DNA of 64,000 nucleotides from a bacterium (GTDB lineage: Bacteria > Pseudomonadota > Alphaproteobacteria > Rhizobiales > Aestuariivirgaceae). The translations under genes were made by a program, and so were the position numbers. Positions within the stretch are counted from its first letter, which is position 1, and every line of letters begins with the position of its first letter. Shown piece after piece: positions 844 to 7,203 of this stretch. The notes beneath the pieces are model-generated. The model was not told where the DNA came from. It ran no database searches and was given only the letters and a program-made list of their open reading frames with translations. The stretch is from positions 1 through 64,000 of the forward strand of contig JALHQC010000016.1 in NCBI GenBank assembly GCA_022842165.1, in the 5' to 3' direction.

Positions 844-3165
<2,322 letters not shown>

Positions 3166-3299: not shown

Positions 3300-3500
3300 A
3301 TGACCAGGCTCGAAAAGATCGAACAGGAAATCGCCTCGTTGGACCCGGCAGACATCCGCCGCCTCGCCGAATGGCTCGCCGAATTCCAAGCCGACCTGTG
3401 GGACAAGCAGATCGAAGATGACGCCAAAGCGGGAAGGCTTGATAAGCTTTTCGCCGATGCCGAGGCTGATATCGCTGCCGGCAAAATTCGGCCACTTTGA
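3300..3500 (+). CDS. Antitoxin of a RelE/ParE-type toxin-antitoxin pair
   Basis: A 66-residue acidic protein with an N-terminal helix-rich segment (LDPADIRRLAEWLAEF) followed by DLWDKQIEDDAKAG and a short C-terminal tail. That arrangement is characteristic of small plasmid and chromosomal antitoxins paired with ParE/RelE-like cytotoxins. It should bind and neutralise the product of the next gene and probably represses the operon. The start is the ATG at 3300; an in-frame ATG further upstream would read through a palindromic repeat and adds unrelated sequence. It overlaps the toxin gene by four bases (TTGA), implying coupled translation. Family assignment is from sequence pattern only. Confidence 0.8.
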   Translation: MTRLEKIEQEIASLDPADIRRLAEWLAEFQADLWDKQIEDDAKAGRLDKLFADAEADIAAGKIRPL

Positions 3501-3766
3501 AGCAAGATCTGAGACACCAGACGACCCACAGGTTCTGGGCCCTGTACAGTGAGTTGCCCGATGACATGCGCGAATTGGCGGATCGCAACTTTCAACTGTT
3601 GAAGAGCGACCCGAAACATCCCTCGCTTCACTTCAAGACGATCGGGCGCAATCGCTGGTCAGTCCGCATCGGCCGCAATTTCCGCGCACTCGCGCAGGAA
3701 CGCGACATGGTGTTCACTTGGGTCTGGATTGGATCACATGAAGAATATGACCGGCTGATCCGCTGA
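3497..3766 (+). CDS. RelE/ParE-family toxin
   Basis: An 89-residue basic protein. It has the compact RelE/ParE layout: two N-terminal helices (DDMRELADRNFQLL), then beta strands containing HPSLHFKTIG, WSVRIGRNFRALA and a terminal FTWVWIGSHEEYDRLI. The SVRIGRNFRAL strand and the final HEEYD resemble the catalytic sheet of mRNA interferases and gyrase-directed ParE toxins; which target applies cannot be told. The start is TTG at 3497, overlapping the antitoxin stop. The pair lies between the uvrB 3' end and its duplicate, so it probably arrived by insertion or recombination. Confidence 0.85.
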   Translation: MKQDLRHQTTHRFWALYSELPDDMRELADRNFQLLKSDPKHPSLHFKTIGRNRWSVRIGRNFRALAQERDMVFTWVWIGSHEEYDRLIR

Positions 3767-3767
3767 C

Positions 3768-3935
3768 AATCCCCGCGCCCGCAATCCCTCCTCGCGCAGC
3801 GGGGAGGGTGGCGCGTCAGCGCCGGGTGGGGCCAGCGCCATACAGGACGCTACCGCAAGCTGGCCTAAACTCAAGGGCGACCGCAAGGCGAATTCAAAGG
3901 CAGGGACGCGGGCATATCGGGGACCGAAGAAATGA
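3768..3935 (+). pseudogene. Duplicated, diverged copy of the uvrB 3' end
   Basis: These 56 codons align with the last 59 codons of uvrB (2989-3165), with a single three-codon deletion (Gly-Lys-Pro). Of 55 aligned residues 47 are identical, the frame is preserved to a TGA stop, and several codon differences are synonymous. No start codon or upstream uvrB sequence is present, so it is a gene fragment and not a functional gene. It includes the palindromic repeat. The direct repeats bracket the toxin-antitoxin pair. Confidence 0.85.
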
Positions 3936-3978: not shown

Positions 3979-5052
3979 TTAGCTCTCAAGGTCATTAGGA
4001 ACTGTCGCTAAATCTGAGGAGTTGGTAAACTCTTTTGCTCGCAAGTCACCATTTACTCCCACTACGAACTGCGAAAAATCCTCCACGGTAATCAGTTTAA
4101 AACTAATTGCTTTTCCGTTCCGGACAGGTACGATTGATTCAGACGATGACAACATACTTTGCCAATAGGTTTGATCCTCTTTGAATCGTCCTTCTTGCCA
4201 GACGTAGACATAACCATCTCTAAGACTCAAATGAAATCTGCGCTTGCCGGCGACACGGTACATTAGTGCTTTTCGATTTCGATTGTTTTCCTGGCCTCGC
4301 TTAATCTCATCTCTGAAAAATGCAGTGGCAGCGCAGGGCTTATACGCTGTGAGTAGTTCTTCCCAAGTCGTGGTCTCATCCACACCTGTATCTCGGAGCT
4401 TCCTCCTTCTGATTGCTAATTCAGTTAACTCAGGAGGAGGATATACGCGACTACAAGAAAAGTATTCTTGAGCTGCGTCAGAAGACAAAGCAATTCTGTA
4501 ACACCTTACATCAACATCATGTTTTTCTGATAGCCACTCAGCCGTGATCAATACTTCAAAGTCAAATTGTTCTGCCAAAAGGACAATTCTCTGGGTTCTA
4601 TTGATTCCATCTACATCTCCATCTTCGAGAACGTCCTCAAGTTCCTCCCTAGCCTCCTCCATACTCTGGCTATTTTTTGATCCATATGATCGATTGAAGT
4701 TAATAAGATTTTCAACAAAATACTTAGGATCGTGCCTCGCCACCATGCCAGCGTACGACAGGGCTTGGAGCAACTGCAGCTTATGACTATCTCGCTTAAT
4801 CTCTATGACAACCGTCACACCGTCTGGGTCAACACCAAGTAGATCAACACGATCTAATACAAAATCTGATGGACTTACTTCACTTCCAACAAGATGGATG
4901 TACTCTCCAAGTTCTTCACAAAATGCACCCGGTGACCTGCAAATCATTTCTTGGATGTCACGCCTCTCCCAATAACCAGCTTCTCGCATAGTAATTTTTT
5001 TTAGCGCAGTTAACTTTTTCTGCCCACTTTCAATCTTCAGCATCTGATTCAA
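3979..5052 (-). CDS. Putative PD-(D/E)XK nuclease, DUF91/NucS-like, next to retron
   Basis: A 357-residue soluble protein. Residues 65-90 show the nuclease core: VDLLGVDPDG followed by VVIEIKRD, giving Asp70, Glu84 and Lys86 as the D...ExK active site. Residues 88-115 (QLLQALSYAGMVARH) and a later segment with EQFDFEVLITAEWLSE fit the NucS/DUF91 nuclease-like domain found in many defence and repair proteins. A separate C-terminal half (about 220-357) resembles no domain I can name. The gene is AT-rich compared with its neighbours and lies 183 bp downstream of the reverse transcriptase on the same strand, so it may be the effector of the system or an independent defence gene. A spacer of that length allows its own promoter. 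Confidence 0.7.
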   Translation of the reverse strand: MNQMLKIESGQKKLTALKKITMREAGYWERRDIQEMICRSPGAFCEELGEYIHLVGSEVSPSDFVLDRVDLLGVDPDGVTVVIEIKRDSHKLQLLQALSYAGMVARHDPKYFVENLINFNRSYGSKNSQSMEEAREELEDVLEDGDVDGINRTQRIVLLAEQFDFEVLITAEWLSEKHDVDVRCYRIALSSDAAQEYFSCSRVYPPPELTELAIRRRKLRDTGVDETTTWEELLTAYKPCAATAFFRDEIKRGQENNRNRKALMYRVAGKRRFHLSLRDGYVYVWQEGRFKEDQTYWQSMLSSSESIVPVRNGKAISFKLITVEDFSQFVVGVNGDLRAKEFTNSSDLATVPNDLES

Positions 5053-5213
5053 TCCAACGATTAGCTAGCACGTGAAACACAAGAAAACATGAGAGTTGAC
5101 TGGCTAATAGATACGCACCTACTCTGCATGGCAGCGCTATCGACTCCTAGTATTCTATACCTACTGATTTAGTGCCATTCAAACGCCGAAGCCTGCAGAG
5201 AGGAGGACTCCAG

Positions 5214-5227
5214 AAATCCGAGGATTT
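5214..5227. repeat. Short inverted repeat after the reverse transcriptase gene
   Basis: AAATCC-GA-GGATTT, immediately downstream of the reverse transcriptase stop on the minus strand. It is a possible RNA hairpin at the 3' end of that transcript. There is no clear U-tract, so its function is open. Confidence 0.35.
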
Positions 5228-5235
5228 GCGCTAAA

Positions 5236-6126
5236 TCATTGCGGAGTTGCAACTTCGATTGCAGCAATTTGGCTGACCTGCCCATTCAAACCAGTAAGCC
5301 GCTCATTTAGCTTTTTCCTCACATTGACGGTCACATTGCGACGAAGAGCAACTCGCGTTTCGTTGAGTTTTTTAAGCTGCCTATTCGGTGCAACAAGCAT
5401 GTCTCCATCAACGACAACTCCTGTTATCTCGGCAGGCCTATCCACAAAGTGCTTTTCCTTGTGGTATCGCAAACCAGAACGATGAATTGCCTTCTTGATT
5501 TCCCACATGGCTATGGGAGAGAGCGATTGACCTGAGATTGTGACATCATCAATGTAGACGGTGAGACGGTACCCATGCGCTTTGCATAGCGCGGCAATAT
5601 TTTCCCAAACATCATAATGGGCGAAGAATGCCATTATGGGGCTGAGTGGACTGCCGGTCGGCAAATGCCCTTTATAGCAAGCCAGTTTCGACAGTAGAGC
5701 AGCTATGTCTCTTTCGCACTGCAATACACTATGAAAAAACCAAAAAACTCTTCGCGAAGACGTACTCGGAAAATACTTACGGACATCAAGACAGCGCACT
5801 ACTCTTTGTCCTCTGTGCTGCGCAGCATTAGTTACGTAGCAACGGCCCTTAACCGGACAGAACAGATAATCAGGAGGCGCAATGCGACCCAGAAAACGCG
5901 CAATTCTCGCTTGAACCAATTTAAGTTTGCGACGGGGATTTTCCACCCCTCGCAAACCACCTGTTTTCTTGGGTACATCAAATTCCGAATAGAGAGAGTC
6001 TGCATGCTTTGCCAGATTACGCAATTCACCTGTTGAGATTTTGAGCAACGCAGCAAGGCGCTTTTTGTTGTTCTGTTTGAACAACGGAGATTGGTGTATT
6101 GGATATGACTTTCCTCTAGTCGGCAT
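5236..6126 (-). CDS. Retron-type reverse transcriptase
   Basis: A 296-residue RT without maturase or endonuclease domains. It begins with the usual retron N-terminus (SPLFKQNNKKRLAALL). It then shows the NAxxH signature (NAAQH, residues 100-104), RT motif with LDVRKYFPS (Asp114), the LPTGSPLSP motif, the catalytic YIDD (191-194), KEKH, and an ITG equivalent of the retron VTG motif (234-236). These signatures separate retron RTs from group II intron and DGR enzymes. It should prime on a structured ncRNA to make msDNA. The ATG at 6126 is preferred because residues before it are not RT-like. It overlaps the XRE gene by 11 bases, so the two are translationally coupled. Confidence 0.9.
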   Translation of the reverse strand: MPTRGKSYPIHQSPLFKQNNKKRLAALLKISTGELRNLAKHADSLYSEFDVPKKTGGLRGVENPRRKLKLVQARIARFLGRIAPPDYLFCPVKGRCYVTNAAQHRGQRVVRCLDVRKYFPSTSSRRVFWFFHSVLQCERDIAALLSKLACYKGHLPTGSPLSPIMAFFAHYDVWENIAALCKAHGYRLTVYIDDVTISGQSLSPIAMWEIKKAIHRSGLRYHKEKHFVDRPAEITGVVVDGDMLVAPNRQLKKLNETRVALRRNVTVNVRKKLNERLTGLNGQVSQIAAIEVATPQ

Positions 6127-6421
6127 GAACGCTTTCCGTGCGATCCTCAAGAAACTGCATCAATTTTATGATCTTTGACGCAACGAATGTTCGAGCTCTC
6201 TCTCTAGTTGGGGCTTTGCCCATGTTCTCCGCGAAGAACATTATCGAAGATACTGGAATGCCGAAACAAACTTCATATTTCCTAAGTAGATCAAGTGAAG
6301 GCTCCTTGTGTCCCTTCTCGATTTCCGACAGATACGACTTAGAGATTCCAAGCCTCTCCGCCGCCTCGTTCTGTTTCATGTCGTGATAGACACGGATCAG
6401 GCGAAGCGCCTCATTTAACAT
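6116..6421 (-). CDS. XRE/Cro-CI family regulator of the retron locus
   Basis: A 101-residue protein with a clear helix-turn-helix in residues 7-62 (MKQNEAAERLGISKSYLSEIEKG), of the XRE/Cro-CI type, and a short helical C-terminus. It has a strong Shine-Dalgarno (AAGGAGG) six to twelve bases before the ATG at 6421. A perfect 12-bp palindrome (6432-6443) abuts that site, suggesting autoregulation. It overlaps the start of the reverse transcriptase. XRE proteins occur beside several retron lineages, either as regulators or as parts of the toxic effector; which applies here is unknown. Composition is AT-rich like the rest of the island. Confidence 0.88.
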   Translation of the reverse strand: MLNEALRLIRVYHDMKQNEAAERLGISKSYLSEIEKGHKEPSLDLLRKYEVCFGIPVSSIMFFAENMGKAPTRERARTFVASKIIKLMQFLEDRTESVHAD

Positions 6422-6431
6422 AAAATCCTCC

Positions 6432-6443
6432 TTGTATATACAA
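6432..6443. promoter_or_regulatory. Palindromic operator-like site before the XRE gene
   Basis: TTGTATATACAA is a perfect 12-bp palindrome touching the Shine-Dalgarno of the XRE gene. Small dyads in this position are typical self-repression sites for XRE proteins. Binding is inferred, not shown. Confidence 0.5.
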
Positions 6444-6456
6444 AGCAGGGCGGCGG

Positions 6457-6633
6457 TTACTCCCGCAAGACCTTAACAACCATGTAGAACAGCCACACCA
6501 GATTGGTTACGAGCTTTCCTACTGCTATCAAGAACGTTACCGTTCTCGGGTTCCGCAAGACTTTCATCCGACTCGCCCAAGTCTTCGATTTCGTCCGCCG
6601 CCGTTCCCGATCGATATGCTTCGATGTTTCCAT
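6457..6633 (-). CDS. 58-residue single-pass membrane peptide upstream of the XRE gene
   Basis: Small gene read on the minus strand from ATG 6633 to TAA 6459-6457, with a good ribosome site (AAAGGAAA) about eight bases before the start. The N-terminal half is strongly basic (METSKHIDRERRRTKSK). The C-terminal half holds one hydrophobic helix of about 20 residues, beginning VTFLIAVGKLVTN and continuing through VWLFYMVV, ending KVLRE. It lies 35 bp upstream of the XRE gene in the same direction and so should share its transcript. Several retron and toxin systems use small membrane peptides as toxic effectors; that role here is inference. I recognise no named family. Confidence 0.6.
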   Translation of the reverse strand: METSKHIDRERRRTKSKTWASRMKVLRNPRTVTFLIAVGKLVTNLVWLFYMVVKVLRE

Positions 6634-6639
6634 CGCAGT

Positions 6640-6950
6640 TTCCTTTCACACCAACCTGAGCGGGATTGCCAAGGTTGCCATCGGGGCGTGAAAAGTAGGG
6701 GCAGGAACGGTTAAACCCTGTCTGTACGGGCGTGCCCCCGCCATCGGGGCACGCCCGCGCCGCCACGCGCGCTATCGCACATACCGGCCGGAAATCAGAA
6801 GATTATCAATCTCCCACGAAGCGCCGTCTCAGGAGCTTCAGCAAATGATGACATTTCCCCTTTCAGCAATCGACGTTCCATATATGGCAGTTCAGCGGGG
6901 TTTCTGCAAGAAGATAATTCGCTACCAGCGAATTTTGTGCGCGAGCATTC
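6640..6950 (-). ncRNA. Candidate retron ncRNA (msr-msd) region
   Basis: This 310-bp stretch, immediately upstream of the membrane-peptide, XRE and RT genes, is rich in dyads. An 8-bp/3-nt hairpin lies at 6916-6934 and a palindrome at 6878-6887. Short stems occur at 6844-6857 and 6800-6812, and an 11-bp/7-nt hairpin at 6728-6756. On the minus strand the segments at 6946-6936 and 6781-6771 can pair (6 plus 3 bp with a 2x2 internal loop) and would enclose about 154 nt, like the a1/a2 stem of retron RNAs. The exact ends and the branching guanosine could not be fixed by eye. Placement upstream of the RT cassette is the main support. Confidence 0.4.
6728..6756. repeat. Strong GC hairpin in the presumptive retron ncRNA region
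   Basis: GGGCGTGCCCC, a 7-nt loop, then GGGGCACGCCC: a perfect 11-bp stem. There is no U-tract on either side, so it is not a simple terminator. Its right arm overlaps an 11-bp direct repeat (GCCATCGGGGC at 6677-6687 and 6740-6750), so an alternative pairing is possible. Confidence 0.75.
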
Positions 6951-7098
6951 TGTGCGCCGTAGAGCACGGGCGTAAACATGGCGAGGATACGTAGTCCGGC
7001 ATCACGGCGAAAGCCGGGGCCCCGCTTGCTTTCACAAATTCGGGTGACACAGGCAAAGGTGTCCGCTTCGCGCCACCCTCATCCGGCGTTTCACGCCA

Positions 7099-7125
7099 CC
7101 TTCTCCCGCCACGGGCGGGAGAAGG
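7099..7125. repeat. Palindromic repeat
   Basis: CCTTCTCCCGCC-ACG-GGCGGGAGAAGG, a perfect 12-bp stem of the same intergenic family as 26226-26252. It marks the return to GC-rich chromosomal sequence after the island. The rest of 6960-7203 holds no gene I can support. Confidence 0.75.
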
Positions 7126-7203
7126 GATTGCAATCCGGCATTGTGGCGCCTTCGTATCGCCCGTACAGTCCCTGTCCTAACAACACTTCAGGAGTTCACC
7201 ACC

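Follow-up and report, generated by a model that had tools for sequence, protein, structure and literature searches.

The window analyzed here, 64,000 nucleotides (nt) of an Aestuariivirgaceae genome (contig JALHQC010000016.1, positions 1 to 64,000), carries on its minus strand a retron-like cassette in which the loop of a putative RNA hairpin recurs in the leader of a small membrane peptide gene. The preliminary description of this DNA had listed, in this order, a structured region, a 58-amino-acid (aa) peptide, an XRE-type regulator, a reverse transcriptase (RT) and, 183 bp later, a nuclease-like open reading frame (ORF), and all of these are present (Table 1). The structured region is untranslated and occupies ~230 nt between an inverted repeat and the 58-codon ORF. 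The RT is 296 aa long when read from the ATG at 6126, which makes it overlap the end of the helix-turn-helix (HTH) gene; the first-start version of its ORF begins at TTG 6150. The motifs NAAQH, YIDD and ITG can be read in its translation, as had been described, and the AT-rich character of the island also held up, since the three 1-kb windows from 4001 to 7000 have GC contents of 0.435, 0.469 and 0.507, compared with 0.58–0.69 in the rest of the window.

Table 1. Features of the retron locus and its nuclease-like neighbor, in window coordinates
Feature	Positions	Strand	Remarks
Cassette, whole	5236-6934	minus	Order: inverted repeat, noncoding RNA, peptide, HTH, RT
Putative HTH operator AATTCGCTGGTAGCGAATT, promoter region	6916..6934	minus	Inverted repeat; binding presumed
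5′ msr element TCATC	6847..6851	minus	Complementary to leader copy, with one G-U
msr stem-loop 1 (presumed)	6817..6840	minus	Compensatory changes in stem (11-sequence alignment)
msr stem-loop 2 (presumed)	6796..6816	minus	Compensatory changes in stem (11-sequence alignment)
Putative msd hairpin, GC-rich	6726..6758	minus	Apical loop GATGGCG at 6739-6745; hairpin picked by the distance rule in 49/49 loci
Leader copy GCCCCGATGGC of the msd loop	6677..6687	minus	11-mer repeat and permutation tests; mean unpaired probability 0.71
Leader hairpin, outer and inner stem (predicted)	6643..6695	minus	Adjoins and partly pairs the Shine-Dalgarno sequence (~6639-6646)
58-aa cationic hydrophobic peptide, putative toxin	6457..6633	minus	Same kind of ORF in 49/52 RT+HTH loci
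XRE-type HTH protein, HTH_VI	6116..6421	minus	PADLOC HTH_VI, E 5.7e-36
Retron reverse transcriptase, type VI	5236..6126	minus	PADLOC RT_VI, E 8.7e-89; NAAQH, YIDD, ITG
PD-(D/E)xK-like nuclease ORF, 357 codons	3979-5052	minus	183 bp beyond RT

The earlier assignment to the retrons was borne out. Against the PADLOC models, the RT scores 295.5 bits with RT_VI and 141.8 bits with the next model, the HTH protein scores 120.7 bits with HTH_VI (model positions 1–91 of 92), and the best sequence relatives of the RT in the Protein Data Bank (PDB) are the retron RTs Ec86 and Ec67. Retron RTs carry motifs named NAxxH and VTG-like, to which NAAQH and ITG correspond; the 58-aa peptide lies at the usual place of the small auxiliary protein, and a conserved structure, presumably the msr-msd RNA, lies upstream. 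We have very little doubt that the cassette is a type VI retron, a known kind of virus-defense cassette of bacteria. The preliminary description did not know this combination of genes from the described retron types, and here it has to be corrected: type VI retrons are described as an RT with a DNA-binding protein and a small auxiliary protein (PMC8541194, citing Mestre 2020). Because RT, HTH protein and small auxiliary protein already describe type VI, the gene set is not new. The cassette shares with the class of Mestre et al. (2020) an RT_VI, an HTH_VI directly upstream of it and the small auxiliary protein, and the nuclease-like neighbor is the sole difference in gene content; four of our loci (L056, L058, L059 and L071) come from the four phages named for type VI in PMC8541194. 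A match between the loop of the noncoding RNA (ncRNA) and the leader of the toxin is absent from the type VI descriptions accessible.

The association of these genes extends well beyond the window. All 10 relatives found by RT alone (60–77% identity) have an HTH gene and a 56–62-aa peptide in the same order, and the claim that the cassette is one system thus stands for the RT, the HTH protein and the membrane peptide. Our tests admitted only loci in which an RT and an HTH had both been identified, so the conservation of HTH in the 49 loci discussed below is partly by choice. The first set consisted of 38 distinct RT+HTH loci from genomes, plasmids and phages, with L019, L045 and the window being duplicates of L011 or L003. 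Three of these (L024–L026), perhaps a sister retron type, have a weak HTH match (25–35%) and, instead of the cationic peptide, a different upstream ORF of ~80 aa; they were dropped, leaving 35. A later set of 14 loci came from plasmids, one phage and E. coli prophages, Enterococcus and Staphylococcus included, and contains the peptide in 14 of 14, for a total of 49 of 52 distinct RT+HTH loci. The plasmid, phage and E. coli loci were picked by hand from longer match lists, and some toxin starts were set by eye. Unused were HTH matches without RT (L027–L042) and RT matches without an HTH match (L012, L016, L017, L047 and L048), of which the last four are weaker RT_VI matches. L012 (G000:C38), a 442-aa open frame that matches PADLOC RT_other and RT_outgroup, is a second retron-like RT in the genome of the window, and no HTH match was found in its fetched flanks. 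RT matches, not necessarily all type VI, were counted in 17 records of phages (at 1e-20) and 69 of plasmids (at 1e-30), and a relative of the P2_2H1 cassette is present in 99 of 5,426 complete E. coli genomes. The RT query gave no match among viral contigs, and two scans of small classes yielded no further loci.

The window peptide has no match in Pfam, PADLOC or NCBIfam, but its kind recurs. Peptides in all 49 loci are 47–67 aa long and carry an N-terminal charge of at least +3, and 40 of the 49 contain a 17-residue stretch with mean hydropathy above 1.0, a composition that fits small hydrophobic type I toxins. The peptide is under protein-level constraint, with ratios of nonsynonymous to synonymous change (pN/pS) of 0.16–0.69, below 1 in all 8 chosen pairs, a comparison made without a significance test. 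Judging from these sequences, we take the peptide as a real gene in which the sequence diverges and the kind does not, and it is likely a toxin.

The upstream ncRNA matches no Rfam family. From an alignment of 11 sequences, RNAalifold predicts two stem-loops of msr type, a GC-rich hairpin and, ahead of the start of the peptide, a further hairpin; 15 of the 44 predicted pairs have changed on both sides. The GC-rich hairpin of the window is perfect over 12 bp (6727–6757), and an 11-mer at 6677–6687 is repeated at 6740–6750; inside this 11-mer, the GATGGC of the putative msd loop recurs 63 nt downstream in the peptide leader. Relatives keep the same relation between loop and leader in other letters: CGACGGGG in L008, GGGCGAG in L059, ACGAGGC in L014, CGAAGAC in L055, CCGACGAC in L046, TGGCGTGA in L018, CGCGATGAC in L043 and AGGCAAC in L051, a cyanobacterial plasmid. 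Loop and leader letters change in step between clades.

For a quantitative comparison, the best hairpin with its loop center 85–145 nt before the peptide start was taken at each locus, the longest exact match of the 15 nt around the loop to the leader was scored, and loops and leaders were permuted among loci. The mean match is 6.52 nt in a set of 21 representatives sharing less than 55% RT identity, compared with 4.72 nt when permuted, and 0 of 100,000 permutations did as well. Nine of the 14 later loci, as 9 later groups, have a mean of 6.0 nt versus 4.69 nt permuted (27 of 100,000). Three of these (L071, L074 and L079) have RTs 64–99% identical to those of earlier loci; the 6 strictly new loci, with RT identity of at most 55.5% to earlier ones (L066 is 55.5% identical to L057), gave 5.5 nt versus 4.53 nt (4 of 720). 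With all 27 representatives, where the mean match is 6.3 nt, each of four loop windows of 9–15 nt gave 0 of 50,000 permutations, and leader shuffles gave 0 of 2,000. Neither control gave a signal: 21,717 of 50,000 permutations did as well with the loop in reverse complement, and 10,399 of 50,000 with the outer stem arm. Across the 49 loci, loop and leader share 6 nt or more in 38 and 5 nt or more in 47; 35 of the 38 matches of at least 6 nt lie within 75 nt of the peptide start, and in 29 of the first 35 loci the leader copy begins 45–62 nt before it.

The motif also exists in a third copy, as a complement: the bases immediately 5′ of stem-loop 1 complement the leader copy, reading TCATC in the window (with one G-U pair), CCTCGT in L014 and AGTCGTC in L046, and in L070 CTCCAGT was seen by eye to be complementary to ACTGGAG in the leader. 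RNAalifold, unprompted, pairs the columns of this 5′ element with the GATGG of the leader, a pairing that L008 retains through a double change. When the search was anchored on stem-loop 1, 60 of 100,000 permutations matched as well, and by set the anchored test gave 56 of 50,000 for the 21 loci, 1,378 of 50,000 for the 6 later loci alone and 0 of 50,000 for the 27 together. The anchoring rule misplaced the stem-loops in at least L008, L051, L055, L061, L066 and L067, and these loci were retained. The three elements co-vary, and, judging by place, the classical a1/a2 pairing of retrons may be that of the 5′ element with the leader copy. We considered a small upstream ORF beginning at the ATGG of the leader and discarded it, since L008 reads GACGG at this place.

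The folding energies of the leaders are lower than in their shuffled versions (20 per leader, median z −2.4). The median unpaired probability of the Shine-Dalgarno sequence is 0.19 across the 49 leaders folded, and in the 35 loci with a copy of at least 6 nt in the leader that copy has a median of 0.81 (0.71 in the window), pairing values that come without a shuffled control. As modeled, the folds mostly hide the Shine-Dalgarno sequence and leave the repeat single-stranded.

Since the msd loop sequence is repeated in the peptide leader, the loop of a multicopy single-stranded DNA (msDNA) copied from it would be antisense to the leader. The retron could thereby make a small DNA complementary to the first part of the mRNA that encodes its own peptide, and the DNA itself could be the off-switch. 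We assign a probability of roughly 0.6 to this msDNA antisense mechanism, that is, to a toxin-antitoxin module resembling type I in which msDNA is the antitoxin. The odds are about even for the fuller version, in which the type VI RT makes a DNA antisense antitoxin whose loop pairs with the toxin leader on the same transcript and reverse transcription perhaps also trims the mRNA into its active form.

How might such a module operate? A single transcript would carry the msr-msd ncRNA, then the leader and peptide gene, then HTH and RT. The Shine-Dalgarno sequence would be held in a stem, the single-stranded repeat would be a standby or switching site for the ribosome, and the full-length RNA would be silenced by pairing of its own 5′ element with the standby site. 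The RT would copy the msd hairpin into msDNA. Once the RNA had been reverse transcribed and the template removed, this msDNA, consisting of the DNA loop and the linked msr RNA, would cover the site in trans, its presumed effect being repression rather than activation. Phage would be the presumed trigger: once the msDNA was damaged or sequestered, or its synthesis blocked, the peptide could be translated and, if toxic, would disturb the membrane and stop the infection. More speculatively, reverse transcription starting beside the leader copy could remove the strand that hides the Shine-Dalgarno sequence, so that processing and antitoxin formation would be one act. The HTH protein would repress its own promoter. 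Thirty of the 49 loci have TTCGC-N(3-7)-GCGAA at −420 to −200 relative to the peptide start, a P2-like group (L056, L071, L075–L079) lacks it, and we infer that HTH binds this operator-like repeat.

Several observations weigh against the DNA antisense mechanism. A stretch of 5–10 nt is short for antisense control, and the repeat could instead be read by a protein. Eleven of the 49 loci share fewer than 6 nt (among the first 35, these are L004, L020, L021, L022, L050, L052 and L061), the best match in L013, L052 and L060/L074 lies 88–90 nt before the start, and 3 of the 52 RT+HTH loci have no such peptide. In L004 the msd loop, AAGGT, mismatches the leader, while the leader copy and the 5′ element agree (GATGG/CCATC); L004 could serve as a natural variant able to test the role of the loop. 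The distance rule was set after the first 35 loci had been viewed. Single cases among the 6 strictly new loci are weak: at 3 of them the loop fits unrelated leaders as well as its own, namely 16, 12 and 9 of the 21 leaders of the first set. Without anchoring, the 5′ element showed no significant match to the leader (9,883 and 19,577 of 100,000 permutations). By eye, individual loci seemed to contain a separate a1/a2 stem, for which the overall test gave no support (5,935 of 50,000). In the window itself the Shine-Dalgarno sequence is only half paired (unpaired probability 0.49, again a value with no shuffled control).

The three copies of the motif could also form a switch made of RNA alone. 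Here the 5′ element would pair with either the msd loop or the leader, reverse transcription would decide between them by removing the msd RNA, and the DNA loop would never contact the mRNA. Because the 5′ element complements the leader, it also complements the loop, and the likeness of loop and leader would then require no DNA-RNA contact. However, such a switch needs no lasting msDNA, whereas retrons are described as acting through their msDNA (PMC12409349), and the match between loop and leader (6.3 nt) is longer than that between 5′ element and leader (4.6 nt), although the window sizes of the two comparisons differ. We consider an RNA-only switch unlikely.

Another possibility is that the cassette is a canonical tripartite retron, in which protein contacts with msDNA, RT and HTH restrain the peptide and the motif is a recognition site for RT or HTH in the RNA. 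Retrons are described as inactive complexes of RT, msDNA and toxin from which phage enzymes release the toxin (PMC12409349), and the HTH gene adjoins the RT gene. A protein site, however, would have to change in the loop, the leader and the protein together in each clade; moreover, contacts of this kind do not predict the complementary 5′ copy and leave the folded leader unexplained. This makes a tripartite complex quite improbable as the account of the motif.

Similar regulatory logic to that of the DNA antisense mechanism is established for TisB/IstR-1 (PMC7708055) and TimP/TimR (PMC11228461). The ribosome-binding site of tisB is sequestered and its translation requires a single-stranded upstream standby site; shared with our proposal are a small membrane toxin, a sequestered ribosome-binding site, the single-stranded upstream site and an mRNA that is active only after processing (PMC7708055). 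In timP/timR, the toxin mRNA switches structures and the antitoxin acts on the active one, but that antitoxin is RNA and there is no reverse transcriptase (PMC11228461). The tripartite toxin-antitoxin retrons Eco1 (Ec86) and Sen2 share a retron RT, an msDNA that keeps the toxin off and release of the toxin by phage enzymes that alter or degrade msDNA; in these, a toxin protein is held in a complex, whereas here toxin synthesis would be controlled (PMC12409349). The difference from tisB/istR-1 would lie in the antitoxin, here a DNA reverse-transcribed from the very transcript that encodes the toxin. IstR-1, by comparison, is an RNA with its own gene. As the proposed complementary strand is DNA, we do not file the cassette as a type I toxin-antitoxin system.

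What is new is the loop/leader match with its co-variation, the gene set itself being known. If the match is functional, a single specific mRNA would have its translation controlled by a stable single-stranded DNA, a mechanism absent from the accessible descriptions of retrons. In the literature searched, outside of which lie subscription journals and most preprints, we found no paper on a toxin or mechanism of type VI retrons. A recent preprint may already report a retron DNA-RNA hybrid that controls toxin translation, in which case the mechanism proposed here would be a confirmation and not the first example. Type VI retrons are already in annotation libraries (PADLOC), and the loop/leader element can be sought in other type VI loci.

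The nuclease-like ORF had been called NucS/DUF91-like and tentatively grouped with the retron genes as one system, a reading in which it would be the effector of a four-gene defense cassette. The label draws on a weak match to the NCBIfam NucS model (E 0.0016, 17.6 bits, below the family cut-off of 216), on a match of 111 bits to PDC-S11, a PADLOC candidate defense family, and on a D...EIK motif read by eye; the ORF has no Pfam match and no sequence relative in the PDB. A single-sequence structure model was useless (mean predicted local distance difference test score, pLDDT, 31) and was set aside. Searched at 1e-20, the nuclease was found in 1 of 240 genomes of the class, the window's own, and in no plasmid; viral contigs gave no match either, and the PDC-S11 model has a relative in 7 other genomes of 199 in the order. 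The ORF is on the same strand as the RT and only 183 bp away, both are AT-rich, and its family is a defense candidate. However, the other 48 retron loci do not have the nuclease in the flanks fetched for them (mostly 0.5–6 kb behind the RT, 84 bp in L073), and no retron RT or HTH was found in the fetched flanks of the 7 relatives of the nuclease. Other genes lie behind the RT elsewhere, such as a ThsB-like TIR gene directly behind the type VI retron on two alphaproteobacterial plasmids (L049:4477-5436 and L054:4399-5364). The four-gene cassette is therefore very improbable, the nuclease was rejected as a fourth retron component, and from these genomic comparisons we conclude that the ORF is a neighbor and not a conserved part.

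The surroundings of the cassette have features of their own. The same-genus relative L003/L045 aligns with the window over 5414–6815 only. The genus is probably Aestuariivirga, as L045, the duplicate of L003, lies in a genome of the same genus. The 3′ end of uvrB is duplicated (2986–3125 and 3765–3904; 140 nt, 91% identical), and between the two copies lies a small module whose second ORF (3497–3766) matches a ParE-like toxin domain. Short repeats that recur in the same genome and in other genomes of the genus are present at both ends of the AT-rich insert (3784–3839 and 6993–7136) and are possibly linked to entry of the island.

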